From: Ilumatobacteraceae bacterium
GTDB lineage: Bacteria > Actinomycetota > Acidimicrobiia > Acidimicrobiales > Ilumatobacteraceae
DNA length: 64,000 nt
Direction: 5' to 3'
Assembly: GCA_033344875.1 (NCBI GenBank)
Contig: JAWPMO010000001.1
Coordinates: 1,637,595-1,701,594, forward strand
Part shown: piece by piece, positions 32,994 through 51,450 of the stretch
Layout: every line of letters begins with the position of its first letter
Numbering within the stretch: the stretch's first letter is position 1
Notes under the pieces: generated by a model
Seen by the model: the letters and a program-made list of their open reading frames with translations, nothing else
What the model was told of the DNA's origin: nothing
Databases searched by the model: none
Made by a program: the position numbers and the translations under genes

Positions 32994-35559
<2,566 letters not shown>

Positions 35560-35616: not shown

Positions 35617-36117
35617 GTGAGCGGCAAGAGCACTTCCACGATCGCGCGCCCCGACAGCCGTCGGCGGGCATCCGACCGTGGCCGGTCCCGGCTCGGCGAC
35701 ATCACGCGTCCGATCCACATCGATCGGCGGATCACCAAGCAGCGCCGCAGCACGGCGCTCCTCGCGCTGGTCGCCCTCGCGATCGCCGGGGCGCTCGCCG
35801 CCGCCCTCTTCGTGCTGCCCGTCCAGACCTACTTCGGTCAGAACGACCGCCTCGATCAGCGGCGCGATCAGTTGGCGCAGCTCGAACAGGTCAACGACGA
35901 TCTCCGATCGGAGGTCGATCGTCTCCGCACCGACGACGGCGTCCGCGAAGCCGCGCGGGTCGAACTCGGCATGGTCGAGGCCGGCGAGCGGCGCCAGTCG
36001 GTCCTCGCGCTCCCCGACGTGCCGACCGAACTCCCCGACGGCTGGCCGTACTCGCTGGTCTCGGGCATCGCGGAGATGCGACGTCAACCCCCGCCGCCCG
36101 CGGCGGCGCAGCCTTGA
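35617..36117 (+). CDS. Septum formation initiator (FtsB/DivIC) family protein
   Basis: 166 aa. Basic cytoplasmic N-terminus (about 45 aa), one membrane helix (about 48-68, LLALVALAIAGALAAALFVL), then a coiled coil (DRLDQRRDQLAQLEQVNDDLRSEVDRL) and the DivIC-type REAARVELGMVEAGE segment, ending in a Pro/Ala tail. It bridges divisome proteins FtsQ and FtsL at the septum. Directly downstream of eno, the conserved position. GTG start. Confidence 0.9.
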   Translation: MSGKSTSTIARPDSRRRASDRGRSRLGDITRPIHIDRRITKQRRSTALLALVALAIAGALAAALFVLPVQTYFGQNDRLDQRRDQLAQLEQVNDDLRSEVDRLRTDDGVREAARVELGMVEAGERRQSVLALPDVPTELPDGWPYSLVSGIAEMRRQPPPPAAAQP

Positions 36118-36701
36118 CGTCGGCGATGCCGGCTCGACGTCGGGGTGAATGGCTCCACCGGGGCGAGCAGGCGATCTACGAGAGCGAGTGGGTCAACCTG
36201 CACATCGCCGACGTCCTGATGCCCGACGGCACGCAGGTCGATCACCACCTGGTCAGGATGCACCGACCGGCGGTCGGCACGATCATCACCGCGGAGGCCG
36301 GCGTCCTGCTCCTGCACCGACACCGGTTCATCACCGACACCTGGGGTTGGGAGGTGCCCGCCGGCGGCGTCGACGCCGGGGAGTCGGCCGAACAGGCGGC
36401 CATCCGCGAGGCCCACGAGGAGAGCGGCTGGGAACCGGTCACCGTGCGGCGCTTGTGCTCGTTCTACCCGGCCAACGGCCTCCTCGATCAGGCATTCGTC
36501 ATCTACGTGAGCGACGACGCGGTGCACCGCGGGCCGCCGGTCGACGTCAACGAGGCCGAACGGGTCGAGTGGGTGTCGGTCGGCGACGTGCGAGAACTCC
36601 TGCTCGGCGGCAAGATCAGCGACGGCCTGTCGTTCGCTGCGATCTCGTACTGGCTCGCCTCCGGCGCCGCCGACGGCACCGACGGTTCACGACCGTCCTG
36701 A
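36114..36701 (+). CDS. NUDIX hydrolase
   Basis: 195 aa, ADP-ribose-pyrophosphatase-like. The Nudix box is GGVDAGESAEQAAIREAHEE followed by SGW (G-x5-E-x7-REAxEExGx). The preceding WGWEVPAGG and following SFYPANGLLDQAFVIYVSDD match the ADPRase/Nudix group that hydrolyses nucleoside diphosphate sugars. It may start at TTG 36114 (4-base overlap with the FtsB-like gene) or at ATG 36126. Confidence 0.88.
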   Translation: MTSAMPARRRGEWLHRGEQAIYESEWVNLHIADVLMPDGTQVDHHLVRMHRPAVGTIITAEAGVLLLHRHRFITDTWGWEVPAGGVDAGESAEQAAIREAHEESGWEPVTVRRLCSFYPANGLLDQAFVIYVSDDAVHRGPPVDVNEAERVEWVSVGDVRELLLGGKISDGLSFAAISYWLASGAADGTDGSRPS

Positions 36702-36748
36702 GCGCTCGGCGAGGCTCGACGCCTCAGGCCGCGACGGGCACGGGCTAC

Positions 36749-36761
36749 TACGGTGGCAGCG
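36749..36761 (+). promoter_or_regulatory. Leaderless -10 box (TACGGT) for the K+ channel gene
   Basis: TACGGT at 36749-36754 and seven bases to GTG 36762; it decides the start over GTG 36753, which would overlap the box itself. Confidence 0.5.
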
Positions 36762-37754
36762 GTGACATCGACGATCGGGAGACTACGCCTGGCTCTGGCC
36801 CTGGTCCTCAGCGTCTTCGTGATCGGAACGATCGGGTTCTGGGCGTTCGGGCTCGGATTCGTCGACGCGATGTACATGACGATCACCACGATCACGACCG
36901 TCGGGTACCGCGAGCTCAACGGACCCGACATCACCGATGTCGAGAAGATCTTCACGATGGGGATCATCGTGACGGGTGTGAGCACCGTGCTCTACACGTT
37001 CACGCTCGTCGTCCAGACGATCGTCGAGGGGCAGCTGCGAGAGTTCGTCGGGAGGCGCAGGATGGACAGGAAGATCTCCGAGATGCACGATCACGTGATC
37101 GTGTGCGGTTGGGGCCGGGTCGGCCGAGCCGCTGCTCGCGACATGGCCCGCGACGGCACCGACGTCGTGGTCATCGACGAGGACCCCGACCGCGTGGTCG
37201 GGATCGAGCTCCCGACCATCGTCGGTGATGCCACCCACGACGCCACCTTGCGTGCTGCCGGGATCGAGCGGGCGCGGGCCCTGATCGCCGCCCTCGAAGG
37301 TGACGCCGAGAACCTGTTCGTGACGCTCTCGAGCCGGGCGATCAAGGCCGATCTGTTCATCGTCGCTCGCGCCCGCCAGGACGAGAGCGTCGAGAAGCTG
37401 AGTCGTGCCGGCGCCGACCGTGTCGTGAATCCGCAAGAACTCGGCGCCGCCCGGATGGCCTCGTTCGTGCTGCAGCCGAACGTCGCGGAGTTCGTCGACG
37501 TCGTGATGCACGAGCGCTCGATGGACTTCCGGATGCGCGAGGTCGAGATCCCCGAGGGCTCACAGATCGCCGGAAGTACGCTGCGCTCCGCCGATCTGCG
37601 CCAGCGCGCCGGCGCACTCGTCCTCGCACTGCGTGGCGACGACGGCACGTTCACGACCAACCCCGACCCCGACACCGTGCTCCATCCCCGAAACATCATC
37701 GTGGCGGTCGGGACCGACGAAGCCCTCCAGGAGTTGGTGAAGGCATGCCAGTGA
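36762..37754 (+). CDS. Two-helix potassium channel with RCK/TrkA domains
   Basis: 330 aa. TM1 about 8-28 (ALALVLSVFVIGTIGFWAFG), pore helix and filter TITTITTVGYRELNG, TM2 about 66-90 (MGIIVTGVSTVLYTFTLVV), then a TrkA-N Rossmann domain (DHVIVCGWGRVGRAAARDMA, VVVIDEDPDRV, VGDATHDATLRAAGI) and a TrkA-C domain from about 245. MthK-like. The filter reads TVGYRE instead of TVGYGD. It overlaps the following HAD gene by 10 bases. Confidence 0.9.
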   Translation: MTSTIGRLRLALALVLSVFVIGTIGFWAFGLGFVDAMYMTITTITTVGYRELNGPDITDVEKIFTMGIIVTGVSTVLYTFTLVVQTIVEGQLREFVGRRRMDRKISEMHDHVIVCGWGRVGRAAARDMARDGTDVVVIDEDPDRVVGIELPTIVGDATHDATLRAAGIERARALIAALEGDAENLFVTLSSRAIKADLFIVARARQDESVEKLSRAGADRVVNPQELGAARMASFVLQPNVAEFVDVVMHERSMDFRMREVEIPEGSQIAGSTLRSADLRQRAGALVLALRGDDGTFTTNPDPDTVLHPRNIIVAVGTDEALQELVKACQ

Positions 37755-38434
37755 CCGAACCCCGAACCCATGTGCTGCTCGATCTCGACGGCACGCTGTC
37801 CGATTCCGAACCGGGCATCCTGCGCTCACTCCAGTGGGCGTGCGAGCAGGAGGGCTTCCCGGTACCGACCGAGGCCGAGGTGCGGTCGGTCATCGGGCCG
37901 CCGTTCGAGATCGGCCTCCCGTCGATCGGGATCCCGGACGACGCGCTCGAACGGGTCATCAACCGGTACCGCGAACGGTACGAGACGATCGGGGCGTTCG
38001 AGAACACGCTGTACTCCGGGATCATCGAGATGCTCGACGAACTGGCCGGCCTCGATCTGTCGCTCTCGATCGCCACCGCCAAGCCGGAGCAGACCGCCCA
38101 TCCGATCCTCGACTACTTCGAGATCAGCGAGCGTTTCGACGTCAGGGCGGGAGCTTCGATGACCCCCGATCGACGGACGAAGGCCCAGGTCATCGACCAC
38201 GCACTGCACGGCCTCGAGATCCATGCCGATCCCGACCTGAGCGATCACGTGATCATGATCGGCGATCGCGATCACGACGTCCTCGGCGCGATGCATCACG
38301 GCATCGTGTGCATCGGTGTGACGTGGGGCTACGGCACGCCGGAGGAACTGCTGCGGGCGGGTGCGATCGCACTCGCCGACTCCCCCGCCGAAGTTGCAGA
38401 GCTCGTCATGCAGCCGTACCGTTTGCGCCACTGA
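37745..38434 (+). CDS. HAD-superfamily phosphatase, phosphoglycolate phosphatase-like
   Basis: 229 aa. Motif I LLDLDGTLSDSEPGILRSL with the nucleophile DxD; cap domain about 20-90; motif II SIATAKPEQTAHPIL; motif III Lys in RRTKAQVIDHAL; motif IV IMIGDRDHDVLGAMHHG; end GYGTPEELLRAGA. It resembles Gph/PgmB-type enzymes; substrate not determined. Overlaps both neighbours, so it is part of a coupled run with the channel and the next membrane protein. Confidence 0.9.
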   Translation: MPVTEPRTHVLLDLDGTLSDSEPGILRSLQWACEQEGFPVPTEAEVRSVIGPPFEIGLPSIGIPDDALERVINRYRERYETIGAFENTLYSGIIEMLDELAGLDLSLSIATAKPEQTAHPILDYFEISERFDVRAGASMTPDRRTKAQVIDHALHGLEIHADPDLSDHVIMIGDRDHDVLGAMHHGIVCIGVTWGYGTPEELLRAGAIALADSPAEVAELVMQPYRLRH

Positions 38435-38877
38435 TGACGACGCAACCGATCGACGCCCAGGGCGCCGCCGCACCAGACGAGTACACGCTCTGCGACCCGC
38501 CGCCGCTCGGCCCGGCTCGGTCCGACGCGGATCGCTTCATGCGTCGGCTCCTCCGGCTCCCCGTCGACGGCCCGCAGGCCAGCGCCGGCGACGCCCAGAA
38601 GGCGTTCCAGACCTCGATCCTGGTCGCGACCGTCCGGTGCCTGCTCATGTACATCGTCTTCCCGTTCGTGCTCCCGGCGATCGGCGTGGCGAGCGGTGTC
38701 GGCCCGTGGATCGGCCTGCCGATCAGCCTCGTGGCGATCGTCGCCATCACGATGAGCATCCGCCGGTTCTGGCGGGCCGACCACTCGAAGCGCTGGCACT
38801 ACACGGTGCTCGGTACCACCGTGATCGGGTTCCTGATCTACCTCGTGGCGAAGGACGTCGTCGAACTGATCGGCTGA
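38434..38877 (+). CDS. Hypothetical two-helix membrane protein
   Basis: 147 aa, not recognised. About 70 soluble residues lead to hydrophobic segments near 66-105 (a hairpin, CLLMYIVFPFVLPAIGVASG and [15 protein letters not shown]) and 125-145 (VLGTTVIGFLIYLVAKDVVEL). ATGA overlap with the HAD gene shows co-translation. Its convergent neighbour, the desaturase, starts its stop 35 bp further on. Confidence 0.7.
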   Translation: MTTQPIDAQGAAAPDEYTLCDPPPLGPARSDADRFMRRLLRLPVDGPQASAGDAQKAFQTSILVATVRCLLMYIVFPFVLPAIGVASGVGPWIGLPISLVAIVAITMSIRRFWRADHSKRWHYTVLGTTVIGFLIYLVAKDVVELIG

Positions 38878-38911
38878 CCGGTTGCGGCCAGGCGGCAGTC
38901 GTCGCGAGGCG

Positions 38912-39949
38912 TCAGTCGTCGAAGGCGAGGAAGCTGACGCCGTCGGCGCGGTCGCTCCGCCCGTGCCCCGCCGACGCCGCCCGCCAGAACGCCCGGTACG
39001 ACGGGTACTCGATGTCGGCGGTGACCCATCCGCTCCGCACCAGTTCGGTGTGGAGGGCGGGGAGGTTGCGCCACGGCACGCCCATGTCGACGTGGTGCGC
39101 CAGGTGCCAGCCGGTGTGGTACGGCACCATCCAGTACCGAGCGAGCAGCGACTGATGGATCACGTGCGTGGTCTCCCGCCGATCCTTCGACCGCATCATG
39201 CCGCCGTGTTCGGCGATCGAGCGCAGCCGGTTGGAGACACGCCAGAGCGTCGACCACGAGAGGATCCAGACCACGTACGCGAACGGCCGGAGGAACACGA
39301 CGGACGCACCGATCAGCACGAGGTGCAGCGCAGCGATCTGCAACGCCTCCGACCGGCGCTTCCGGATCGCGCCGAACAGCACGCGGAAGTTCTTGTAGGC
39401 GCTGATGCCGAACGCATCACGCCGGAGCTTGCGCCGCCACGAGTCGGCCGGGATCGGGTAGCCCGCGTACAGCGAGGCATCGGGCTCGTCGGGCCCCATC
39501 TCGTCGCGGTGGTGGGCGAAGTGGGCCCGCCGGTAGGCGAGCATCGCCTGGTACGACGAGTAGGCGAGGAACCGACCGACCCAGTCGTTGGCCCGGCGGT
39601 TGCTGAACAGCAGGCGGTGGGCCGCCTCGTGCCCGAGGATGTTGAGACAGACGTGACCGCGGGCCATCAGCACGAACGCGAGGAGATACGACCACCAGGT
39701 GTCGACCACCGCTGCGGCGACGACCACGCCATACGACTGCAGCAACGTGGCGACGACCGCCACGACGTTGCGGGCGTCGGGGATCTGCCGCAGTCGATCG
39801 CGCAGTTCGCGGGTGGGCTTGCCGCGTGCGTTGAGGCGTTCGGTCGGCAGGACGTCGGGCAGCGCCGGCGGCACCATGCCGCTCCGGGCAGGTTCGGCCG
39901 TCGGGTCGACAACGCCATCGACGACGCCGGTGTCGGGAACGACGCTCAT
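38912..39949 (-). CDS. Fatty acid desaturase family protein
   Basis: 345 aa membrane di-iron desaturase. Three His boxes are visible: GHEAAHRLLF, HFAHHRDEMG and HTGWHLAHHVDMGVPW. Hydrophobic helices flank them (VVAVVATLLQSYGVVVAAAV, YLLAFVLMARGHVCLN, VFLRPFAYVVWILSW). It introduces a double bond into an acyl chain; regio-specificity is unknown. It is divergent from a PaaX-family regulator across a very short shared promoter. The ATG at 39949 is six bases from TAACAT, so the transcript is leaderless. Confidence 0.92.
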   Translation of the reverse strand: MSVVPDTGVVDGVVDPTAEPARSGMVPPALPDVLPTERLNARGKPTRELRDRLRQIPDARNVVAVVATLLQSYGVVVAAAVVDTWWSYLLAFVLMARGHVCLNILGHEAAHRLLFSNRRANDWVGRFLAYSSYQAMLAYRRAHFAHHRDEMGPDEPDASLYAGYPIPADSWRRKLRRDAFGISAYKNFRVLFGAIRKRRSEALQIAALHLVLIGASVVFLRPFAYVVWILSWSTLWRVSNRLRSIAEHGGMMRSKDRRETTHVIHQSLLARYWMVPYHTGWHLAHHVDMGVPWRNLPALHTELVRSGWVTADIEYPSYRAFWRAASAGHGRSDRADGVSFLAFDD

Positions 39950-39996
39950 GGGTGAATGTTACACTCGGCGATCACGATGAGCAAGGTGCGTAACAG
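39947..39996. promoter_or_regulatory. Overlapping divergent promoters with TGTTAC/GTAACA inverted repeat
   Basis: Minus -10 TAACAT (39961-39956) lies six bases from the desaturase ATG. Plus -10 TACACT (39960-39965) lies 11 bases from the PaaX-type ATG at 39977. The two boxes overlap by two bases. TGTTAC (39957-39962) and GTAACA (39990-39995) form an inverted repeat 33 bp centre to centre; the first arm covers both -10 boxes. It is a likely PaaX-family operator; that assignment is inferred. Confidence 0.6.
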
Positions 39997-40768
39997 TCGA
40001 CGGGCGGCGGCACCGAGTTCCGGCGCGCTCCGGCCGCTCAACGCTCGATCGGTCGCGCTGTCGATCCTGCTCGGCAGCCACCCGCCGGAACTCCCGTCCC
40101 GGGCGTTCGTGGCGATGGCCGAGTTGTTCGGGATCTCGGGCGGCACCATGCGGACGGCACTGTCGCGGATGGTCGCCGTCGGGGACGTGACGTCGAACGA
40201 CGGACGGTATCGACTCGCCGGCCGCCAGGTCGACCGTCAGGACGCACAAGACATCGGACGCCGGGCACCGTCAGCCACGTGGGACGGTCGCTGGCACACG
40301 ATCGTCGCCGTCGACGACCAGCGCGACCTGGCCGAGCGACGCCGCTTCCGGGCGACGATGGCCAACCGGCGGTACGGCGAACTCCGTCCCGACATCTGGA
40401 TCCGTCCGTCGAACCTCGGCGACGCACCCACCGACCCGAATTGGCTCGTGACGACCGGGACGATCGACGGCATCGCTCCGACAGCGCTCGTCGGGCGGCT
40501 CTGGGATCTCGACACGATCGCCGCCGAGGCGCACCGACTGCTCGCGGAGATGGCCGACCGCCGCACCCGGTTCGATTGGGACGACGACACCTCGATCCCT
40601 GCGCTCTTCACGACGTCGGCGGCGGTGGTGCGATTCCTCCGCCACGAACCGCTCCTCCCCGACGCACTCACCCCGCACGACTGGTCGGTCGCCACGCTGC
40701 GCTCGACCTACGACGAGTTCGAGACCGATCACCAACGGTTGCTCCGGCGGTTCCTCCGCCACGCGTGA
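39977..40768 (+). CDS. PaaX family transcriptional regulator
   Basis: 263 aa. The N-terminal winged helix (about 15-85) includes [20 protein letters not shown] and [20 protein letters not shown], followed by the PaaX central domain ([34 protein letters not shown]) and the C-terminal domain. PaaX proteins repress catabolic genes and are released by an acyl-CoA, classically phenylacetyl-CoA. Here the target is probably the divergent desaturase gene and itself. The ATG at 39977 is preferred because TACACT upstream fits a 4-nt leader; an in-frame ATG at 39956 lies inside the promoter. Confidence 0.88.
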
Positions 40769-40880
40769 GCCCGTCGACCCCGGACGCGCCACCCGACGGC
40801 GCTCGATGCACGACGGCGAGCGACGGGCGGCTAGCGTCTGGATCGGTATCCATCCACGTCTCAGACCGAGGGGAGTCACA

Positions 40881-41341
<461 letters not shown>

Positions 41342-41345
<4 letters not shown>

Positions 41346-42166
41346 TCCCCGCCGCATTCGACTACGTCCGGGCCGGGTCGGCCGACGAGGCGATCAGCCT
41401 CATCGGCGAGCACGGCGAGGATGCCAAGTTCCTGGCCGGGGGCCACAGCCTGCTGCCGCTCATGAAGCTGCGGCTCGCCCAACCGACCGTGCTGGTCGAC
41501 ATCGGTCGGGTGACCGACCTGTCGTACATCAACGACGGCGGCGACCACGTCGCGATCGGCGCGCTCACCCGTCACATGGACGTCGAGAACAGCGACCTGC
41601 TCCGCGAGCACGTCCCGCTGCTCGCCCATGCCGCCGGCCACGTCGGTGATCCGCAGGTGCGCCACCGCGGCACGATCGGCGGCACGATCGCCCACGCCGA
41701 CCCCGCATCCGACATCCCCGCCACGACGCTGGCGCTCGGCGCCACGTACGTCGCTCAGGGACCCAACGGCACCCGCGAGATCGCGGCCGCCGACTTCTAC
41801 CACGGGTTCCTCACGTCGGCCCTCGAGCCCGACGAGATGATCACCGAGATCCGCGTCCCGAAGATGAACGGTGCCGGTTGGAGTTTCCAGAAGTTCAACC
41901 GCCGGGCCCAGGACTGGGCGATCGTCGGCGTGGCCGCCTGGAGCGGCGCTGCCGGCTCGGGCGTCGGGCTCGTGAACATGGGATCGGTGCCGATCCTCGC
42001 GACCGGCGTGTCCGAGGCACTCGCCGGCGGCGCATCGATCGACGACGCGGCCGAGCAGGCCAACGCTCAGACCGACCCGCAGTCCGACATCAACGCCAGC
42101 GTCGAGTACCGCCAGCATCTGGCTCGCGTGCTCGTCAAGCGGGCGCTCACCGAAGCCGCCGGCTGA
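41342..42166 (+). CDS. FAD-binding medium subunit of CO-dehydrogenase family enzyme (CoxM-like)
   Basis: 274 aa. The FAD motifs of the family are [20 protein letters not shown] (AGGxSL) and [20 protein letters not shown] (TxGGxxA/ADP); the C-terminal CO_deh_flav_C domain follows ([13 protein letters not shown]). It accepts electrons via the 2Fe-2S subunit and passes them to a quinone or other acceptor. It is the last Cox-type structural subunit before the palindrome at 42170. Confidence 0.93.
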
Positions 42167-42169
42167 CCC

Positions 42170-42290
42170 GACGGTTGGTGCCTGGAGCGTGAGCCGATAG
42201 GCGAACTGCGACCAATCGTCACGGGGGCAGCTCAGCGGAATGAAAAGGAGCGCAGCGACCTATCCGCTGAGCGCCCTGGCACCGACCGTC
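42170..42290. repeat. Long imperfect palindrome between coxM-like and SDR genes
   Basis: Outer arms GACGGTTGGTGCC (42170-42182) and GGCACCGACCGTC (42278-42290) differ at one base. The inner arms also pair imperfectly, for example GAGC.GATAGG near 42191-42201 with CCTATCC.CTGAGCGCC near 42259-42274, leaving a loop with AATGAAAAGG. The structure spans the whole convergent gap and just touches the SDR stop. It may be a bidirectional terminator or a small MITE-like repeat. Confidence 0.65.
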
Positions 42291-43011
42291 ACTGCAAGCC
42301 GGCGTACGCTCCGCCGTCGACGTGCAACTGCACGCCGGTGGTGAACCGCGCCGCCTCACCGCACAGGAACGCCACGACCTGACCGAAGTCGTCGGGCTCG
42401 CCCATGGGGCTGCTCGGCATCGTCCCGTCGGGTCGCGCCACACGCGGGGTGCGGTGCAGACCGGGCTGCACGCTGTTGACGGTGACGCCGTCGGCGGCGA
42501 CCTCGCGGGCGAGGGTCTTCAAGAACGCGGTGGCTCCCGCCCTGGCCGTGTTCGACAGGATCAGGTTGGGGATCGGCTGACGAACCGACACCGACGTGAT
42601 GGCCACCACCCGACCCCAGCCGCGCTCCTGCATCGCCGGGACGGCGGCGGTGCACATCGCGACGACCGACATCAGGTTCAGGTCGAGTGCTGCCGGATAC
42701 GCGTCGATCGACGTCGAGGCGAAGTTGCCCGCCGGCGGCCCGCCGGCGTTCGGCACCAGGATGTCCACACCACCGAGCGCCTCGGTGGCCGCGGCGACGA
42801 ATCCCGCCGCCCCGGCGGGGGTCGACACGTCGGCGACCAGCGGGATCACCGACCCCTCGATCGACGCAGCGGCGTCGTCGACGCGCGCCCGGTCACGGCT
42901 GCAGATCGCCACCGTGACGCCCTCGGCGGCCAGCGCCCGCGCAGATCCGAGTCCGAGTCCCGACGACGCCGCAGCGACGGCGGCCCGCTTTCCAGTGATT
43001 CCGAGGTCCAT
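42289..43011 (-). CDS. SDR family oxidoreductase, atypical (FabG-like without YxxxK)
   Basis: 240 aa. The NAD(P) loop is AAVAAASSGLGLGSARALAAEG, VPNAGGPP stands at the NNAG position, and AITSVSVRQP carries the Ser. Where the catalytic Tyr-x3-Lys is expected the sequence reads LILSNTARAGATAFLKTLAR, with Ser/Asn and Arg instead. A subgroup annotated as 3-oxoacyl reductase-like shows the same pattern. Reaction unknown. TACCGT eight bases before the ATG makes it near-leaderless. It is oriented against the cox genes. Confidence 0.88.
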   Translation of the reverse strand: MDLGITGKRAAVAAASSGLGLGSARALAAEGVTVAICSRDRARVDDAAASIEGSVIPLVADVSTPAGAAGFVAAATEALGGVDILVPNAGGPPAGNFASTSIDAYPAALDLNLMSVVAMCTAAVPAMQERGWGRVVAITSVSVRQPIPNLILSNTARAGATAFLKTLAREVAADGVTVNSVQPGLHRTPRVARPDGTMPSSPMGEPDDFGQVVAFLCGEAARFTTGVQLHVDGGAYAGLQ

Positions 43012-43025
43012 GCGGGACGACGGTA
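43012..43025 (-). promoter_or_regulatory. -10 box (TACCGT) for the SDR gene
   Basis: TACCGT (43025-43020, minus), eight bases before ATG 43011. Confidence 0.4.
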
Positions 43026-43068
43026 CACAGCGGTCCTACACTCGGCGGCACCCAGCGGCAGGTGAGGC

Positions 43069-44508
43069 ATGTCCAGCGAAGACGATCCATCATTCGACCA
43101 GATCGACCGGCGCCATCTCGACGCGATCGCCGACGCCGATCAGTACGCGTACTGGTACGACGGCGCGAACGAACCCGATTCCAATCCGACCCTGGTGCGG
43201 ACCGAGAGCTGCGACCTCTGCGTGGTCGGCGGCGGCTACACCGGCCTCTGGACCGCGATCATCGCGAAAGAGCGCGACCCGTCGCGCGACGTCGTGCTGA
43301 TCGAGGCCGCGACCGTCGGCTCGGCCGCGAGCGGCCGCAATGGCGGGTTCATGGACGCCAGCCTGACCCACGGCATCGCCAACGCCCGCGCACGCTGGCC
43401 CGACGAGGTCGAACTCCTCGAAGAACTCGGCCTCCGCAACCTCGACGACATCGAGCGGGCGATCACCAGGTACGGCATCGAGTGCGACTATCAGCGGACC
43501 GGGGTGATCGAGGTCGCGAACTCCACCCACCCTCCCTCGTACTTCGAGGAGATCCGCGACGACTACGAGCTGATGGTCCAGCTCGGCCACGATGTCGAGT
43601 GGCTCGACGCCGACGCCATGCAGGAACAGGTCCACTCCCCGATCTACACCGGTGGCGTGTGGGACAAGAACGGCTGTGCGATCGTCGACCCGGCCAAGCT
43701 CGTCTGGGGGCTGAAGAGCGCGGCCGAATCGCTGGGTGTGCGCATCTACGAGGACACCAGGGCGACCGACCTGAAACGCGACGGCATCGGCGTGATGGTC
43801 ACCACACCGTTGGGCACGATCCGGGCCGGCAAGGTCGCCCTGTGCACCAACGCGTTCAAGCCGGTGCTCAAGCGCCTGGGCAACTACATCGCGCCGGTCT
43901 ACGACTACTGCATGGTCACCGAGCCACTCACCGACGAGCAGATGGCATCGATCGGGTGGGAGAACCGGCAGGGTCTCTCCGATCTCGCCAACCAGTTCCA
44001 CTACTACCGACTCACCGCGGACAACCGGATCCTGTGGGGCGGGTACGACGCCGTCTACTACTGGGGCGGCAAGGTCTCGGCCGAGTTCGAGAGCCGACCG
44101 GAGACGTGGGCCAAACTCAGCCGGCACTTCTTCGAGACGTTCCCGCAGCTCGAGGGAGTCCGGTTCACCCACATCTGGGGCGGCGCGATCGACACGTCGA
44201 GCCGCTTCAGCGTGTTCTGGGGCCGAGCGATGGGCGGACGGGTCGGGTACGCACTCGGCTACACCGGGCTCGGCGTCGCCGCCTCACGTTTCGGGGCGGC
44301 CGTGATGCTCGACCTGCTCCACGGTCGACGGTCGATCGCGACACAGACCGAGTTCGTCCAGTCGCGGCCGCTGCCGTTCCCGCCCGAGCCGTTCCGGTTC
44401 GTCGGCATCCAGGCGACCCGGTGGTCGCTCGGCCGCGAAGACAAGACCGGCAAACGCAACCTGTGGCTCAAGGGGCTCGACAAGATGGGCCTCGGGTTCG
44501 ACAGCTGA
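43069..44508 (+). CDS. FAD-dependent oxidoreductase (DAO family, glycine/D-amino acid oxidase-like)
   Basis: 479 aa. A leader of about 45 residues, then the FAD Rossmann motif LCVVGGGYTGLWTAIIAKER and VVLIEAATVGSAASGRNGGF. The substrate domain contains WGGYDAVYYWGG, and the C-terminal GLGVAASRFGAAVMLDLLHG closes the FAD site. It resembles amine or gamma-glutamylputrescine-type oxidases; substrate unknown. GGTGAGG precedes the ATG. It sits between the coxSM genes and the moxR/VWA genes, 19 bp upstream of the latter. Confidence 0.88.
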   Translation: MSSEDDPSFDQIDRRHLDAIADADQYAYWYDGANEPDSNPTLVRTESCDLCVVGGGYTGLWTAIIAKERDPSRDVVLIEAATVGSAASGRNGGFMDASLTHGIANARARWPDEVELLEELGLRNLDDIERAITRYGIECDYQRTGVIEVANSTHPPSYFEEIRDDYELMVQLGHDVEWLDADAMQEQVHSPIYTGGVWDKNGCAIVDPAKLVWGLKSAAESLGVRIYEDTRATDLKRDGIGVMVTTPLGTIRAGKVALCTNAFKPVLKRLGNYIAPVYDYCMVTEPLTDEQMASIGWENRQGLSDLANQFHYYRLTADNRILWGGYDAVYYWGGKVSAEFESRPETWAKLSRHFFETFPQLEGVRFTHIWGGAIDTSSRFSVFWGRAMGGRVGYALGYTGLGVAASRFGAAVMLDLLHGRRSIATQTEFVQSRPLPFPPEPFRFVGIQATRWSLGREDKTGKRNLWLKGLDKMGLGFDS

Positions 44509-44515
44509 CAACGGG

Positions 44516-44527
44516 TAGGTTCGCATC
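44516..44527 (+). promoter_or_regulatory. Leaderless -10 box (TAGGTT) for the MoxR-type gene
   Basis: TAGGTT at 44516-44521, six bases before GTG 44528. Confidence 0.5.
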
Positions 44528-45427
44528 GTGACTCCTGCCGACGTCAGCGCCGCACTCACACAGCACGGCTATCTCCCCGACGACGGCCTGTCCACGGCGG
44601 TCTTCCTCGCCATGGAGCTCCGCCGGCCGTTGCTGCTCGAAGGCGAGGCCGGCGTCGGCAAGACCGAGCTGGCCAAGGTGCTCTCGACCTGGACGGGCGG
44701 TGAGCTCATCCGGCTCCAGTGCTACGAGGGCATCGACGCGGCGCAGGCCGTCTACGACTGGGACTACGCCCGACAGCTCCTCCACCTGCGTGCCGCCGAG
44801 GCGACGGGCGAGACCGCCGGGCGATCGTCCGATGCCGTCGAGGCCGACCTCTACCAGGAGCGGTTCCTGATCAAGCGAGCGCTGCTCCGGGCGATCGGCC
44901 ACGGCGACGGCCCACCGCCCGTGCTGCTGATCGACGAGGTCGACCGGGCCGACGACGAGTTCGAGGCGTACCTGCTCGAAGTGCTCTCCGACTTCCAGAT
45001 CACCGTGCCCGAGATCGGGGTCTATCGTGCCGAGACGCCGCCGCTGGTGGTGTTGACCTCGAACCGCACCCGTGACGTGCACGACGCCCTCAAGCGTCGC
45101 TGCCTCTACCACTGGGTCGAGCATCCCGGGTTCGACCGCGAGGTCGCGATCGTGCGGCTGCGCGTGCCCGGCTGCACCGAGTCGCTGGCGCGCGAGGTGG
45201 CCGCTGCGGTCGAGACCATGCGCGACCTCAACCTCTACAAGCCGCCGGGCGTCGCGGAGACGATCGACTGGGCCGCGGCGCTCGGCAGGCTCGGGGTGAC
45301 GACCCTCGACGAGCACAGTGTCGCCACGACGCTGGGCACGGTGCTGAAGTACCGCGAGGACCACCATCGTGTCGAGCAGCACGGACTCGCGGCGATCATC
45401 CGGCAGGCGGCCGAGCGAAGCCGGTGA
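44528..45427 (+). CDS. MoxR-family AAA ATPase (CoxD-like)
   Basis: 299 aa. Walker A LLLEGEAGVGKTELAKVL, Walker B PVLLIDEVDRADDEFEAYLLE, sensor LTSNRTRDVHDALKRRCLYHW. Together with a VWA partner, CoxD-type ATPases act as chaperones that mature the molybdenum-copper or other metal site of CO-dehydrogenase-like enzymes. The next gene, a VWA protein, overlaps by 4 bases, the classic coxDE pairing. GTG start. Confidence 0.92.
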   Translation: MTPADVSAALTQHGYLPDDGLSTAVFLAMELRRPLLLEGEAGVGKTELAKVLSTWTGGELIRLQCYEGIDAAQAVYDWDYARQLLHLRAAEATGETAGRSSDAVEADLYQERFLIKRALLRAIGHGDGPPPVLLIDEVDRADDEFEAYLLEVLSDFQITVPEIGVYRAETPPLVVLTSNRTRDVHDALKRRCLYHWVEHPGFDREVAIVRLRVPGCTESLAREVAAAVETMRDLNLYKPPGVAETIDWAAALGRLGVTTLDEHSVATTLGTVLKYREDHHRVEQHGLAAIIRQAAERSR

Positions 45428-46548
45428 CGGCCACACGCGACGCCGGGGAGATCGCCGTCGCGTTCAGCCGCGTGCTGCGCGGCGCCGGTCTGACCGTGCC
45501 GACGTCGTCGACGATCGCGTTCGCCGAGGCGTTGATGCACACCGGACTCGACGACCGCGACACGACCTACTGGGCCGGCCGGGCGACACTCGTCAGACGA
45601 CCCGAAGACCACGAGCTGTTCGACCGCGCCTTCGCGGTGTTCTGGGAGCATGCCGCCGCCGGGGCGATCGAGAGCCCCGACGAGGAGCCGATCGGCATCA
45701 CGTTGGCGATCGACGACGACAGCCTCGACGGCGACGACGCCGAGGCGGCCGAGGCGTCCGACGACCCCGTCATCGAACTCCGCTTCAGTACCACCGAGGT
45801 ACTGCGGCAGAAGGACTTCGCCGACTACACCGCCGACGAGCTGCACGAGGCCCAGGCGCTGATGGCCCGCCTACGGCTCGTCGGGTCGCCACGGCGGTCG
45901 TTGCGGCTCACCTCGTCGAGCACCCGCACGTCACGCCCCGACCTCCGACGCACCGTCCGGTCGGCGATGCGATCCGGTGGCGAACCGATACGGCGACACC
46001 ACCTCCGCCCCGGCACGCGCAACCGCCGCCTCGTGCTGCTGCTCGACGTGAGCGGTTCGATGGAGCCGTACGCCAGGGCACTGATCCGCTTCGTCCACGC
46101 GGCGGTCGCCGGCCGGCAGAAGGTCGAAGCGTTCGCGCTCGGAACCCGCCTCACCCGGTTGACCCGCGAACTGTCGTCGCGCGACCCGGACGAGGCACTG
46201 CGGCGTTCCGCACGGCGCGTCAGCGACTACGGCGGCGGCACCCGCCTCGGCGACGGTCTCCGCGTGTTCAACGACGACTGGGGACAGCGGGGTATGGCCC
46301 GCGGGGCGATCGTCGTCGTCCTGTCCGACGGCTGGGACCGCGGCGACCCCGAGGTGCTCGGCGAACAGATGCAACGGCTCCATCGCGTGGCCCACAAGGT
46401 CATCTGGGTCAACCCGCTCAAGGTGACCCCCGGGTACGCGCCGCTCGCCCGCGGCATGGCGGCCGCGCTCCCCCACATCGACGCGTTCGTCGAGGGCCAT
46501 TCGCTCGACGCGATCGAGCGGCTCGCGAGCGAGATCGCCACCGCGTGA
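45424..46548 (+). CDS. VWA domain-containing protein (CoxE-like)
   Basis: 374 aa. The N-terminal CoxE part (about 10-195) is acidic in the middle. The VWA domain at about 200-374 has the MIDAS motif LLLDVSGSMEPYARAL (DxSxS) and VVLSDGWDRGDPEVLG. Partner of the MoxR ATPase in metallocentre maturation. GTG start coupled to the ATPase gene. Confidence 0.92.
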   Translation: MTATRDAGEIAVAFSRVLRGAGLTVPTSSTIAFAEALMHTGLDDRDTTYWAGRATLVRRPEDHELFDRAFAVFWEHAAAGAIESPDEEPIGITLAIDDDSLDGDDAEAAEASDDPVIELRFSTTEVLRQKDFADYTADELHEAQALMARLRLVGSPRRSLRLTSSSTRTSRPDLRRTVRSAMRSGGEPIRRHHLRPGTRNRRLVLLLDVSGSMEPYARALIRFVHAAVAGRQKVEAFALGTRLTRLTRELSSRDPDEALRRSARRVSDYGGGTRLGDGLRVFNDDWGQRGMARGAIVVVLSDGWDRGDPEVLGEQMQRLHRVAHKVIWVNPLKVTPGYAPLARGMAAALPHIDAFVEGHSLDAIERLASEIATA

Positions 46549-46593
46549 CCGTCGGAGTCGGGATCCGAGCCCGGCGAGAGGCAGACTGACGTC

Positions 46594-46911
46594 ATGAAGG
46601 ACCTGCTGGACGACATCGACCGCTGGCGACGCGACGGCAAGCGGGTCGCGCTCGCCCGCGTCGTCGACATCGAGGGGTCCGGCCCGCGAGATCCCGGTGC
46701 GGCGATGGCCGTCAACGAGGTCGGCGAGGTCGTCGGCAGCGTGAGCGGCGGGTGCGTCGAAGGCGCGGTCGTCAGCGAGTCGTTGTCGGTCCTGCAGGGC
46801 GATCGTGATGCGGGGATCATCACGTTCGGCTACAGCGACGACGAGGCCTTCGCCGTTGGCCTCACCTGCGGCGGCACGATCCGACTGTTCATCGAGGAGC
46901 TCGACTGGTGA
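46594..46911 (+). CDS. XdhC/CoxI N-terminal domain protein, short
   Basis: 105 aa consisting of one XdhC_CoxI domain: VALARVVDIEGSGPRDPGAA and VGSVSGGCVEGAVVSESLSV, ending GLTCGGTIRLFIEEL. It lacks the Rossmann half, which is carried by the next gene. XdhC proteins bind molybdenum cofactor and insert its sulfurated form into xanthine-dehydrogenase/CO-dehydrogenase apoenzymes. Overlaps the next gene by 4 bases. Confidence 0.9.
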   Translation: MKDLLDDIDRWRRDGKRVALARVVDIEGSGPRDPGAAMAVNEVGEVVGSVSGGCVEGAVVSESLSVLQGDRDAGIITFGYSDDEAFAVGLTCGGTIRLFIEELDW

Positions 46912-47717
46912 GCGACCCGATCTACCCAGCGCTCGCTGCCGCGATCCGCGACGAGGAACCGGTCGCTCTGGTGACCGTGATCGACGGCGGCGCCGTCGGC
47001 GCCAAGCTGCTCGTGCAGCCGGGCGGTTCGCCGCTCGGTTCGCTGGGCAACGACGAACTCGACCGGGTCGCCCACCGCGACGCACTCGCGGAACTCGAGG
47101 CCGGCCGGTCGGGTGTCCGCCACTACGGACCGGGCGGCGAGACCACGCCGGAAGACCTCGTCGACACTCCGATCGTGCGAGTGTTCGTCGAGAGCTGGGC
47201 GCCACCGCCGCAGATGTGGATCTTCGGAGCGGTCGACTTCACGGCCGCCCTCGCGAAGGTCGCGAAGGTGCTCGGCTACCGGGTGACGGTATGTGATGCA
47301 CGCGAGGTGTTCGCGACCCGGCGCCGGTTCCCGATGGCCGACGAGGTCCGCGTCACGTGGCCGACCCCCATGTTCGACGATCGGGGTGATCAGCTCGGCA
47401 CCCGAGATGCCGTGTGCATCCTCACGCACGACCCGAAGTTCGACGTCCCTGCAGTCCAGGGGGCGCTCGCGACCGAGGTCGGCTACATCGGCGTGATGGG
47501 CAGCCGCACCACCCACGCGCGCCGCATGGAACGGCTCGCCGAGGCCGGGGTCGACGACCCGATCCAGCTCGATCGGCTCATGTCGCCCGTCGGCATCGAC
47601 ATCGGAGCGCGCACGCCCGAGGAGACCGCGGTGTCGATCTGCGCCGAGATCATCGCCCGGCGGACCGGACGGGTGACCCCGTCACTCCGTGACGGCGAGG
47701 GTCCCATCCACCAGTGA
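46908..47717 (+). CDS. XdhC family protein with Rossmann domain (CoxF/XdhC-like)
   Basis: 269 aa. A second, weaker XdhC_CoxI N-terminal part (about 1-95: EPVALVTVIDGGAVGAKLLV) and an XdhC Rossmann domain (about 100-260: MWIFGAVDFTAALAKVAKVL, VCILTHDPKFDVPAVQGAL, GYIGVMGSRTTHARRMERL, PVGIDIGARTPEETAVSI). Mo-cofactor insertion factor. Its 3' end overlaps the convergent NlpC/P60 gene by 36 bases. Confidence 0.92.
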   Translation: MSDPIYPALAAAIRDEEPVALVTVIDGGAVGAKLLVQPGGSPLGSLGNDELDRVAHRDALAELEAGRSGVRHYGPGGETTPEDLVDTPIVRVFVESWAPPPQMWIFGAVDFTAALAKVAKVLGYRVTVCDAREVFATRRRFPMADEVRVTWPTPMFDDRGDQLGTRDAVCILTHDPKFDVPAVQGALATEVGYIGVMGSRTTHARRMERLAEAGVDDPIQLDRLMSPVGIDIGARTPEETAVSICAEIIARRTGRVTPSLRDGEGPIHQ

Positions 47718-48407
47718 ACCGCCGTCGGCCGCAGCACCGAGCTGTGCTGCCTCGGCGTCACCGAACCGCAACGACTTGTCGGGCAGCCCGGCGATCTCGA
47801 CGTGGCTCCCCGTGTTCGGCGAGTGGATCATGGTCGACGCACCGAGGTAGATCGAGATGTGACCGGGGTAGTAGACGAGGTCACCGGCTTCGGCGTCGTC
47901 ACGCTCGATCGCCGTCGCATCGTTGATCTGATCCCGGCTGACGCGAGGAAGCTCGACACCGGCGGAGCCGAACGCCCAGATCGTGAGCCCGGAGCAGTCG
48001 AAACCGACGCCCGGTTCGGAGGCGAGGTACTCGTACGGCACGCCGAGCTGGCTGATGGCGCTCAGCACCGCGTGCTGCTTGGCCACCGAGACGCCGGCCC
48101 ACTCGTCGCGCAGCGAGCCGCGCTCGAGTTCGACGTCGCGTTCGGTCAGCGAGGCCGCCTGGTCGCGGTGCTGCACGAAGCGTACGTAGTCGATCGGGCG
48201 GGAAGTCTGCTGCCAGCGATCGAGTGCGGCGACGGCCTGCCCGGCGGCGTCGGCGATCACCGTCGACTTGGTCCGGGGGGCGGCATCGGCGCCGTGGTCG
48301 GCCGTTGCTGCGAGGCCGGCGAAGCTCAGCACGCTCGCGACCGCGACGGTGGCGAGCTGCCGCGCGCTCCGCCGCAGGGAGATCTTCGGGGGGTGTACTC
48401 GAGTCAT
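47682..48407 (-). CDS. Secreted C40 (NlpC/P60) peptidoglycan endopeptidase
   Basis: 241 aa. Signal peptide about 1-36 (RRSARQLATVAVASVLSFAGLAATA), a helical linker (40-115), then NlpC/P60 at about 120-215 with the catalytic Cys in VGFDCSGLTIWAF and the His in YYPGHISIYLG. The domain is followed by NTGSHVEIAGL, where the third polar residue lies. It cleaves gamma-D-Glu-diaminopimelate bonds in cell-wall peptides. The leader has a hairpin (CACCTCG and CGAGGTG arms, 48439-48461). Start at 48407 chosen for the signal peptide. Confidence 0.9.
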   Translation of the reverse strand: MTRVHPPKISLRRSARQLATVAVASVLSFAGLAATADHGADAAPRTKSTVIADAAGQAVAALDRWQQTSRPIDYVRFVQHRDQAASLTERDVELERGSLRDEWAGVSVAKQHAVLSAISQLGVPYEYLASEPGVGFDCSGLTIWAFGSAGVELPRVSRDQINDATAIERDDAEAGDLVYYPGHISIYLGASTMIHSPNTGSHVEIAGLPDKSLRFGDAEAAQLGAAADGGSLVDGTLAVTE

Positions 48408-48438
48408 GCTCTGGCTCTCTTCCGTGTGACAGGCCCAA

Positions 48439-48461
48439 CACCTCGCCACGGGGACGAGGTG
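48439..48461 (-). promoter_or_regulatory. Hairpin in the 5' leader of the NlpC/P60 gene
   Basis: Seven-bp stem CACCTCG/CGAGGTG with a 9-base loop, 32 bases before the start. Cell-wall hydrolase leaders in actinobacteria sometimes carry riboswitches, but no known riboswitch consensus was recognised. Confidence 0.35.
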
Positions 48462-48577
48462 AAGCTATCGTCACGAGACCGTAATAAAACGTCGTTGTCG
48501 CAACTTCTTCGTCACAATCGACATCTGTTCGTCGGCCGGTCGACCTCCCGGCTCGAATCAAGAAAGCCTCAGCGCTG

Positions 48578-48589
48578 CATACTCGGACC
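48578..48589 (+). promoter_or_regulatory. Leaderless -10 box (CATACT) for the nucleotidyltransferase gene
   Basis: CATACT at 48578-48583 and six bases to ATG 48590. Confidence 0.45.
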
Positions 48590-49216
48590 ATGACGATCGA
48601 CGGCGACGCAGGCGCGGGCGGTGCCGAACGCACCCTGATCGTGCTGTTGGCAGCAGGCGGCGGGTCCCGCTTCGGCGGGCCGACGCACAAGCTCCTCGCC
48701 GATCTCGGCGACGGCAGCACCGTGGCCGCCGCCGCGATCGACCACGCCGTCGCTGCCGATGTCGGCGACGTGATCGTCGTCACCGGGGCGGTCGATCTCA
48801 CTCACCTCGGTGCGGCGCATCCCACCGTGACGATCCTCCGTCACGCCGGTTGGGCCGACGGGCAGGCCTCCTCCTTGCAGGTCGCGATCGCCGAGGCCGA
48901 GCGACGCGCCGTCAACGCCGTCGTCGTCGGGCTCGCCGACCAGCCGTTCATCGACCCCGACGCATGGCGGCGCGTCGCGGCGGGCACGGCACCGATCTCG
49001 GTGGCCACCTACGCCGGTCGGCGTCGCAACCCGGTGCGTCTCGATCGTTCGATCTGGCCGCTGCTCCCCGCGACCGGCGACGAGGGGGCACGTTCCCTCC
49101 TGCAGATGCGCCCCGACCTCGTGGAGGAGGTACCCTGCCCGGGGTCGCCCGCCGATATCGACACCCTGGAGGACCTGGAGTCATGGCAGAACAGATCGTC
49201 AACGAATTCACCGTGA
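48590..49216 (+). CDS. MobA/MocA-like nucleotidyltransferase
   Basis: 208 aa. The nucleotide-binding loop is VLLAAGGGSRFGGPTHKLLADLG (LAAGxxxRxGxxK), and the metal-binding Asp lies in VGLADQPFIDPDAW. It resembles MocA/CoxI-neighbour enzymes that add CMP or GMP to molybdenum cofactor, fitting the cox accessory genes around it. It overlaps the CoxG gene by 34 bases. Confidence 0.88.
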   Translation: MTIDGDAGAGGAERTLIVLLAAGGGSRFGGPTHKLLADLGDGSTVAAAAIDHAVAADVGDVIVVTGAVDLTHLGAAHPTVTILRHAGWADGQASSLQVAIAEAERRAVNAVVVGLADQPFIDPDAWRRVAAGTAPISVATYAGRRRNPVRLDRSIWPLLPATGDEGARSLLQMRPDLVEEVPCPGSPADIDTLEDLESWQNRSSTNSP

Positions 49217-49875
49217 ACCGCCCCATCGAGGAGGCATGGCCGATCATCTGCGACGTCGAGCGCATCGCTCCCTGTCTGCCGGGCGCACAGCTCGAAGAGA
49301 TCGAGGGCGAGGTCTACCGCGGCCGAGTCAAGGTCAAGCTCGGCGCCGTCACGGCCCAGTTCAAGGGCGAGGCCAAGTTCGTCGAGCGCGACGACGCCGC
49401 GCACACCGCGAAGTTGCACGGCAAGGGCCGGGACACCGGCGGCCGCGGCAACGCCGAGGCCGACATCTACGCCGTGGCCGAGTCGTTGTCACCGACGAGC
49501 ACCAAGTGCACCGTGACCGCCGACCTCCACATCACCGGCAAGGTCGCCCAGTTCGGGCGCGGCATCATGGGCGATGTCAGCAAGAAGCTGATGGACCAGT
49601 TCGCCGGCAACCTCAACACGATGCTCGACGAAGAGGGCACCGAGCCCGCCCCGGCCACCGAGGCACCGGCAGCCGACGCTCCGGCCGCCGAGGCACCGGC
49701 GGCCGACGCCCCGGCCCCCGCCGCACCCGCCGAACCGTCGGTCCGCAAGATCAACGGCCCCGCCGCCGAGCCGATCGACATGGCCGACATGGCCGGGCCG
49801 GCGTTGCTCAAGCGGGCCGCTCCGGTGGCGCTCATCGCGCTGCTCCTGCTGCTCCTGCTGCGCCGCAAGCGGTGA
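49183..49875 (+). CDS. CoxG family protein (SRPBCC fold) with C-terminal membrane anchor
   Basis: 230 aa. CoxG domain at about 1-145: VNRPIEEAWPIICDVERIAP, CLPGAQLEEIEGEVYRGRVK, KLGAVTAQFKGEAKFVERDD, FGRGIMGDVSKKLMDQFAGN. Then an Ala/Pro repeat linker (about 150-185) and a final membrane helix (PVALIALLLLLLL) with RRKR. CoxG recruits CO dehydrogenase to the membrane in Oligotropha-type systems. GGAG five bases before the ATG. The downstream GTG overlaps its stop. Confidence 0.92.
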   Translation: MAEQIVNEFTVNRPIEEAWPIICDVERIAPCLPGAQLEEIEGEVYRGRVKVKLGAVTAQFKGEAKFVERDDAAHTAKLHGKGRDTGGRGNAEADIYAVAESLSPTSTKCTVTADLHITGKVAQFGRGIMGDVSKKLMDQFAGNLNTMLDEEGTEPAPATEAPAADAPAAEAPAADAPAPAAPAEPSVRKINGPAAEPIDMADMAGPALLKRAAPVALIALLLLLLLRRKR

Positions 49876-50813
49876 CCACCGGCGCCGACGATCACGAGCG
49901 CGTGCGAGCGCTGCTCGGGCGCGAACCGCGAGGCCGGTACGAGATCGTCGTCCGAGACGACCAGGGCGACCCGGTCGTGTTGCGCAACGCACCACTCCTC
50001 GACGACGGCACACCGATGCCGACCCGCTACTGGCTGATCGGACCGGCCGAGATCAAGCGCATCGGTCGGCTCGAATCGATGGGTGGCGTCGACGCGGCCG
50101 AGGCGGCCGTCGACCCCGACCAACTGGCCGCCGCCCACGACCGCTATGCGGCCGAACGCGACGCTGCGATCCCCGACGACCACGAGGGCCCGCGCCCGAG
50201 CGGCGGCGTCGGCGGCACCCGCGTCGGCGTCAAGTGCCTGCACGCCCACTGGGGCTGGTACCTCGCCGGTGGCGACGACCCGATCGGCCGTTGGATCGAA
50301 CAGCAATTGGCCGGACCATCCGGGCCGTCAGGCGAGGTCGAGGTCGAGGTCGCGATCCGGGCCGACCGCACGGTCGTCGCCGTGTCGGACGCCACCCACG
50401 AGATCCCGTGGGGCCACCGCAACCTGACCGACCGCTGGTTCACCGACGACGATCCTCCGCGACCGGATGCGCTCACCAATGCGCTCGGCACGATCGACGA
50501 TCATCTCGACGACCTGCTCCGCCTCCACCCCGACGTCGCCGCCGCCGTCGGGTGGACGTTCACCGGCCCGATGATCGATGCGCTGGCGGCCCTCGAAGCT
50601 GGTCGCCGACTCGACGCAGGCGATCACGACTACCCGCGCGACGACGCGGAGGAAGTGTTCCGGCTCGTCGCCACCGAGCCGGCGCGTGACCGCGCCGACA
50701 ATCCCGGGCTACCGTCGGACGCCGTGGAGACGATCATCGCCACCAGCTGCATCGTGCAGGCGTGTATGCGCCGGTTTCACCTCGACGCCGTTCGGCTGCG
50801 AGTCACCCACTGA
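49872..50813 (+). CDS. DUF501 protein fused to a partial Ppx/GppA-like C-terminal region
   Basis: 313 aa. Residues about 8-145 are DUF501: RIGRLESMGGVDAAEA and GGVGGTRVGVKCLHAHWGWY. The remaining 165 residues resemble the middle and end of Ppx/GppA exopolyphosphatases (RNLTDRWFTDDDPPRPDAL, VGWTFTGPMIDALAALEAG, RADNPGLPSDAVETIIATS, FHLDAVRLRV). The N-terminal ATPase-like half of Ppx (DxGTNS, GGGS) is missing, so the fused part is unlikely to be catalytic. In many actinobacteria DUF501 and ppx are adjacent genes after eno-ftsB; here they seem joined and moved. GTG start overlaps coxG. Confidence 0.75.
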   Translation: MTTGADDHERVRALLGREPRGRYEIVVRDDQGDPVVLRNAPLLDDGTPMPTRYWLIGPAEIKRIGRLESMGGVDAAEAAVDPDQLAAAHDRYAAERDAAIPDDHEGPRPSGGVGGTRVGVKCLHAHWGWYLAGGDDPIGRWIEQQLAGPSGPSGEVEVEVAIRADRTVVAVSDATHEIPWGHRNLTDRWFTDDDPPRPDALTNALGTIDDHLDDLLRLHPDVAAAVGWTFTGPMIDALAALEAGRRLDAGDHDYPRDDAEEVFRLVATEPARDRADNPGLPSDAVETIIATSCIVQACMRRFHLDAVRLRVTH

Positions 50814-50820
50814 GTCCGAC

Positions 50821-51450
50821 GTGCGACATCCCGCCTCGATGCTCCGTCGACACTCCCCACTGCGACTCTTCGGCCGGCGGGTGATGCTGCGGCCCCTGGC
50901 ACCCGGCGACTTCGCCGCCTGGAGCGAGGTCCGTCTCCGCAACGAGGCCTGGCTCGTCCCGTGGGAGCCGCAGCGCTCGACCACGCTCCCCGATCCAACG
51001 CGCGACCGGTCGGCGTTCGAGGCTCGCTGCTCGGCTCGCGATCGCGAACGAGCGGCCGACCATGCGTACCCGTTCGGGCTGTTCATCGACCAGCAGTTCG
51101 CCGGCGAGGTCAACCTCAACAACGTCACCCGCGGTGCACTGCAGAGCGGCACGATCGGCTACTGGATCGACCAGGCGCGCGCCGGTCACAGCTACACGTC
51201 GGAGGCGGTCGCCGTCGTGACGAAGTTCGCGTTCGACGAACTCCAGCTCCATCGCCTCGAGATCTGCATCGTGCCGCGCAACGCCAACAGCCGGCGGGTC
51301 GTCGAGAAGCTCCGACTGCGCAACGAAGGCGTGGCCGAGCGCTACCTCGAGATCAACGGCACGTGGGAGGACCACGTGCGGTACGCGATCACCGCAGAGG
51401 AATGGGCCGTCCGCTCGGACGAGTTGACGGCCGCCTGGATCGCCGGCTGA
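50821..51450 (+). CDS. GNAT N-acetyltransferase, RimJ-like
   Basis: 209 aa. GRRVMLRPLAPGDFAAWSEV at the N-terminus, GTIGYWIDQARAGHSYTSEA with the acetyl-CoA loop, and LHRLEICIVPRNANSRRVVE with KLRLRNEG are the marks of ribosomal-protein-alanine N-acetyltransferases. It acetylates protein N-termini or small amines. GTG start 7 bp after the DUF501 stop, so probably one transcript. Confidence 0.9.
   Translation: MRHPASMLRRHSPLRLFGRRVMLRPLAPGDFAAWSEVRLRNEAWLVPWEPQRSTTLPDPTRDRSAFEARCSARDRERAADHAYPFGLFIDQQFAGEVNLNNVTRGALQSGTIGYWIDQARAGHSYTSEAVAVVTKFAFDELQLHRLEICIVPRNANSRRVVEKLRLRNEGVAERYLEINGTWEDHVRYAITAEEWAVRSDELTAAWIAG

Follow-up and report, generated by a model that had tools for sequence, protein, structure and literature searches.

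The window, a stretch of 64,000 nucleotides from an Ilumatobacteraceae bacterium, contains an open frame on the forward strand at 49872–50813 that encodes a protein of 313 residues, with a GTG start at 49872 and a stop codon at 50811–50813; frame, coordinates and length agree with those given by an earlier, sequence-only reading. The protein is a fusion. Its first part, residues 7–147 (49890–50312, forward strand), is a DUF501 domain, and its second, residues 154–313 (50331–50810, forward strand), is almost certainly the second actin-like subdomain of a Ppx/GppA phosphatase. Two signatures of the Ppx2 type are kept in the second part, DPPxPxxLTNALG at residues 194–206 (50451–50489, forward strand) and RDxAEEVFRxxATExxxDRxxNPG at residues 256–279 (50637–50708, forward strand). 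Immediately 5′ lies a gene for a coxG-like SRPBCC protein (49213–49875, forward strand), whose stop codon overlaps the GTG start of the fusion gene (GTGA). The two belong to a conserved operon, moxR-vWA-xdhC-xdhC-mobA-coxG-DUF501-ppx2. The ancestral neighbours of the DUF501-ppx2 pair, encoding enolase (34282–35559) and the FtsB/DivIC septum protein (35617–36117), are on the same strand, and between them and the pair, at 36118–49871, are a cox (molybdenum CO-dehydrogenase-like) maturation module and variable further genes. Directly 3′ of the fusion gene, again on the same strand, is a frame for a GNAT-type acetyltransferase (50821–51450).

The DUF501 domain is complete: PF04417 matches residues 27–143 with 81.9 bits (E 5.3e-23; cut-off 23.8), and the family invariants LLGR.P, PMPT, GTR.G.KCLH.H and LAG..D..G.W are all present. 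These invariants are the same whether the Ppx2 partner is intact or halved, so DUF501 is apparently independent of the Ppx active site. A predicted model of DUF501 alone is of very high confidence (pLDDT 95.8, pTM 0.89). No solved structural relative was found by sequence search, the best Foldseek hit in the PDB has E 1.3, and VIA-align comparison of the model with 174 chains gave no match; the modelled fold may be new. Genes for DUF501 proteins are essential in Corynebacterium diphtheriae, C. glutamicum and Mycobacterium tuberculosis (PMC10166564), and M. smegmatis has an FtsB-DUF501 fusion (PMC9846249); neither study assigns DUF501 a function.

The identity of the second part is not apparent from single-sequence searches. 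Residues ~176–309 match PF02541 with 11.6 bits (E 0.19), where the curated cut-off is 27 bits, and TIGR03706 with E 0.044; the marginal single-sequence match would leave the relationship to Ppx unproven on that evidence alone. Comparison with closer relatives is decisive. In a search of 150 genomes, residues 179–311 match intact Ppx2 proteins of the same bacterial family with E 3.5e-27 and 45% identity, and these proteins are encoded beside DUF501 or fused with it. A hidden Markov model built from eight intact neighbouring Ppx2 sequences matches the window protein with E 5.6e-31 over model positions 136–283 of 301, and matches other such halves down to about 1e-44. Profile–profile alignment (hhalign) of twelve halves with eighteen intact Ppx2 proteins gives 100% probability and E 5.3e-43, and alignment of the halves with the Ppx1 type from another locus is co-linear (92.7%, E 4e-7). 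Modelled residues 154–313 superpose on residues 134–296 of Aquifex Ppx (1t6d) with Z 21.9 and an rmsd of 1.8 Å over 153 residues, and on the Bifidobacterium protein 3cer with Z 21.2; the top rows of the structure comparison are all Ppx/GppA. The suggestion that DUF501 is fused here to a remnant of Ppx is thus borne out both by profile matches and by an actin/RNase-H fold in the predicted structure, the two checks that could have spoken against it.

Of Ppx2 the fold is left, together with one group of conserved residues; the ligand pocket is gone. Subdomain I, with DIGTNS and the region of the catalytic glutamate, is missing altogether. Within subdomain II, the window protein is without DIGGGSTE, GxAGT, RADVIVGG and the C-terminal VSxxxxLDG. 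Most or all halves have lost DIGGGSTE, G-x-A-G-T, H225, R259, G266 and VSxxxxLDG (HMM numbering); DIGGGST of the phosphate-binding loop and RADVIVGG each occur in 0 of 58 half proteins. Among 62 full-length Ppx2 proteins the lost motifs of subdomain II are nearly invariant, the D, GGG and STE positions of the loop being at least 97% conserved. Kept in the halves are DPPxPxxLT, D184-D185, E213xG215, E235xxxR239, R249xxNPG and R275 (HMM numbering), and 13 residues of the half domain are invariant: P198, L201, T202, D210, G232, E242, G244, R256, F263, R264, R274, P278 and R300. With these active-site elements missing, the half should be catalytically dead, and hydrolase activity is predicted to be absent.

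The missing part does not appear to be supplied from elsewhere. As the sequence-only reading proposed, the protein has no catalytic N-terminal half of Ppx, and PF02541 is found at only one other place in this genome, in a different, full-length paralogue of the Ppx1 type with domain III. This paralogue is not a displaced ppx2: besides domain III (PF21447) it has a match to HD, and its E value against the Ppx2 model is 5e-46, far poorer than the 1e-90 to 1e-152 of most true Ppx2 proteins. With PF02541 at E 0.001, no match was found in most sampled congeners or in several other half-carrying genomes, including the complete genomes G019 and G012; survival of subdomain I as a separate gene is rejected on the strength of these two. 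All ten half-carrying genomes tested keep ppk1. In several half-carrying genomes, G019 and G012 among them, ppk1 is present and PF02541 has no match, so the half does not serve as an aid to another Ppx. One genome of 2.93 Mb keeps a Ppx1-type phosphatase with domain III (L033:8804-10513); other sampled species of that genus have no intact Ppx-GppA protein, and ppk1 is present where checked (G019, G079).

The position of the gene is ancestral. In nearly all loci with readable flanks, moxR-vWA-xdhC-xdhC-mobA-coxG, or its end, stands directly 5′ of DUF501, and this upstream order is common to loci with full and with half ppx2; wherever the flanks of a half locus were inspected, the half occupies the ppx2 position after coxG-DUF501. 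Enolase lies 5–8 kb upstream in L103, L111, L144, L154 and L163, and in the window eno-ftsB lies 14 kb upstream of DUF501 (eno 34282, ftsB 35617, DUF501 49872). In L154 the order is eno-ftsB-thioesterase-moxR onwards, and L128 has mazG-eno-ftsB-DUF501-ppx without cox genes (ftsB and thioesterase of L154, and the genes of L128, were named by eye from sequence). The cox module therefore sits inside the old eno-ftsB-DUF501-ppx2 cluster across Acidimicrobiia, and DUF501 has stayed put. The gene does follow coxG, but the earlier view that it had moved to the cox region is ruled out by the conserved order, which is also found with full-length ppx2, and by the presence of eno-ftsB in the same window.

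Where the genes are separate, the DUF501 stop overlaps the start of ppx2 or of the half, mostly as ATGA or GTGA. Of the 18 separate halves, 17 have the overlap, a figure that includes L039, L125 and L126, in which the overlapping ATG was seen in context; most full ppx2 genes have it too. The overlap probably entails translational coupling. Because the half starts at the same overlap as ppx2, subdomain I must have been lost in place from the 5′ end of the gene.

The truncated form is not peculiar to this genome. A scan of genome contigs with one sequence gave no match; an alignment-based scan gave 80 named Acidimicrobiia loci, which were combined with earlier loci for classification. Near-duplicates included, DUF501 is accompanied by a separate full ppx2 in 48 loci and a fused full one in 16, by a separate half in 18 and a fused half in 40; one further locus, L092, falls outside these classes and is partly eroded. 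In the set of 107 distinct loci the half is found in 44, fused in 29 of them and separate in 15, all in one bacterial family, within which the 150 genomes show the same DUF501-half fusion in many species. The half is thus a lineage-wide state over many genera, broader than the single case first noted. In a phylum-wide set of 246 genomes, no match outside this family lies in an open frame shorter than 292 residues, so that full-length Ppx2 beside DUF501 is the rule.

On a tree of the 107 distinct rows, two changes account for the full or half state, the halves arising by the first and L092 by the second, and the fused or separate state needs at least 11, fusions of full-length Ppx2 included. 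A tree of DUF501 alone requires 7 full/half changes, but constraining the halves to one clade improves the likelihood and is not rejected (AU p 0.67). The trees are consistent with one ancient loss behind all halves except L092, which is the simplest reading; many independent losses of subdomain I are rejected, L092 alone being a separate, independent case, and one of partial erosion. In L092 (7971-9176) a Ppx2 fused to DUF501 starts at HMM position 93, with most of subdomain I gone and DIGYGSTE in place of DIGGGSTE; the C-terminal LDG motif is still there. Another locus, L157 (7977-9638), encodes a DUF501-Ppx2 fusion in which a repetitive GPSAV linker of roughly 100 residues separates the two parts.

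Estimates of dN/dS are 0.11–0.48 for the halves; for DUF501 in these proteins they are 0.05–0.23, and for full Ppx2 0.04–0.32. The value for the half is below 1 in every pair where it could be computed, and selection is least stringent within the genus to which the window belongs (up to 0.48). Judged by these ratios, the half is under purifying, though relaxed, selection.

In this family, then, ppx2 has been truncated in place and has lost its catalytic part, and the remainder, fused to DUF501 in the window, has long been retained. The identity of that remainder is nearly certain; its function we infer. It is probable, though well short of assured, that it is a pseudoenzyme half of Ppx2 kept as a non-catalytic partner of DUF501. 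In an ancestor of one Acidimicrobiia family, probably the Ilumatobacteraceae, the first subdomain of ppx2 was lost in place at the 5′ end, and the phosphate loops of the second subdomain decayed. The remaining ~155 residues have persisted through many genera, in some loci as a gene of their own that overlaps DUF501 and in others, as in the window, joined to DUF501. The half would no longer hydrolyse or bind polyphosphate, ATP or alarmones, and would have been retained because DUF501 relies on the second subdomain of Ppx2 for its folding, its positioning or its docking. The retained domain would thus be the DUF501-binding part, and the pair a single non-catalytic unit in these bacteria.

Such a unit might act in cell division or envelope growth, because DUF501 is essential and linked to FtsB; a structural role near cell division would fit the gene order and the fusions in other actinobacteria. 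An AlphaFold model of the fusion, built with 75 sequences, has a mean pLDDT of 94.9 and a pTM of 0.80, where roughly 0.5–0.6 is our own estimate for two freely floating domains of like size; the value favours partnership. The earlier idea that the retained part is a binding module gains indirect support from this value, from the recurrent fusions, from the stop/start overlap and from the unchanged DUF501 invariants, and the module may be regarded as putative. Weaker selection on the half (up to 0.48) than on DUF501 (0.05–0.23) counts against partnership.

That same difference, seen in nearly every half pair and greatest in the window's genus, would be expected if the half were a slowly decaying vestige shielded from frameshifts by fusion to an essential DUF501, and the loss of all ligand motifs also favours decay. 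Yet the half persists in 44 distinct loci over many genera, in 15 of them as a separate gene that is free to be lost. Its dN/dS is below 1 in all computable pairs, 13 residues are invariant, and the predicted fold is clean and of high confidence. A vestige is therefore unlikely.

It is also conceivable that the half is a sensor that regulates DUF501, its remodelled pocket still taking up a nucleotide, an alarmone or a polyphosphate terminus. Binding of (p)ppGpp and ATP is a property of Ppx/GppA proteins, and several of the half's invariant residues are polar; the Ppx ligand site, however, lies between subdomains I and II, and the half has lost subdomain I as well as the subdomain II loops DIGGGSTE, GxAGT and R(A)DVI. 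Inhibition of the ATPase of Rv1026, the M. tuberculosis Ppx2, by pppGpp (PMC3411833) is a point in favour of sensing, but we think it improbable in the halves. A regulatory or ligand-binding role is likewise unlikely to operate through the old active site, given that the half's own phosphate-binding loops are gone.

Equally little can be said for the rebuilding of a two-lobed, Ppx-like body, in which two halves pair or DUF501 covers the surface that subdomain I once occupied. DUF501 is joined exactly at the former start of subdomain I, and the old ppx2 start overlap is the start of 17 of the 18 separate halves, as such a body would have it; intact Ppx2, however, has subdomain I alongside DUF501, which speaks against it. 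That the likeness to Ppx is spurious, or the fusion a sequencing frameshift, could be entertained on the single-sequence Pfam match (E 0.19) but is refuted by the direct Ppx2, HMM, hhalign and structure matches and by the same architecture in many independent assemblies.

The preferred reading, a non-catalytic partner of DUF501, invites extension to intact Ppx2. For Rv1026, which adjoins the DUF501 gene Rv1025, exopolyphosphatase activity is undetectable and ATP hydrolysis no more than modest, and C. glutamicum Ppx2 hydrolyses polyphosphate (PMC3411833); the weak ATPase of the one and the polyphosphate hydrolysis of the other indicate that intact Ppx2 is not simply a scaffold. It is possible, but doubtful, that polyphosphate chemistry is not what actinobacterial Ppx2 is conserved for next to DUF501, and that its conserved role is instead that of a DUF501-binding scaffold, formed by the second subdomain, which aids an essential FtsB-linked process, the half-Ppx lineage being a natural separation of that role from catalysis.

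The half-Ppx lineage amounts to a natural deletion experiment, which suggests that DUF501 needs a structural partner and not an enzyme. A family that has discarded the enzyme half and kept the other reveals the part of Ppx2 that accompanies DUF501, and raises the question of a Ppx2 function in division or envelope growth rather than in polyphosphate turnover. It also offers small constructs for binding tests and structure determination: the 155-residue half, a 150-residue DUF501 and the 313-residue fusion.

The half-Ppx2 with DUF501 is a new form of a known gene pair. The actinobacterial cluster eno-ftsB-DUF501-ppx2 (Rv1024-Rv1025-Rv1026; cgp_1113, Cg1115) has the same pair, order and DUF501 family as the window; in contrast, the window has the cox maturation module between ftsB and DUF501, and its ppx2 lacks the first subdomain and the ligand loops and is fused to DUF501. 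With the Ppx/GppA phosphatases (PF02541; Aquifex 1t6c/1t6d, Bifidobacterium 3cer) residues 154–313 share the fold of the second subdomain, and several Ppx2 signature residues are shared as well, but subdomain I, the catalytic glutamate, DIGGGSTE, GxAGT and RADVIVGG are lacking and the match is below the Pfam cut-off. Fusions of DUF501 with full-length Ppx2, in genus g6 and elsewhere (e.g. L121, L102), have the same domain order in one polypeptide; there, unlike in the window, Ppx2 is intact and all motifs are present. In the M. smegmatis FtsB-DUF501 fusion (PMC9846249), DUF501 is likewise joined to a member of the same neighbourhood, the partner in that case being FtsB and not Ppx.
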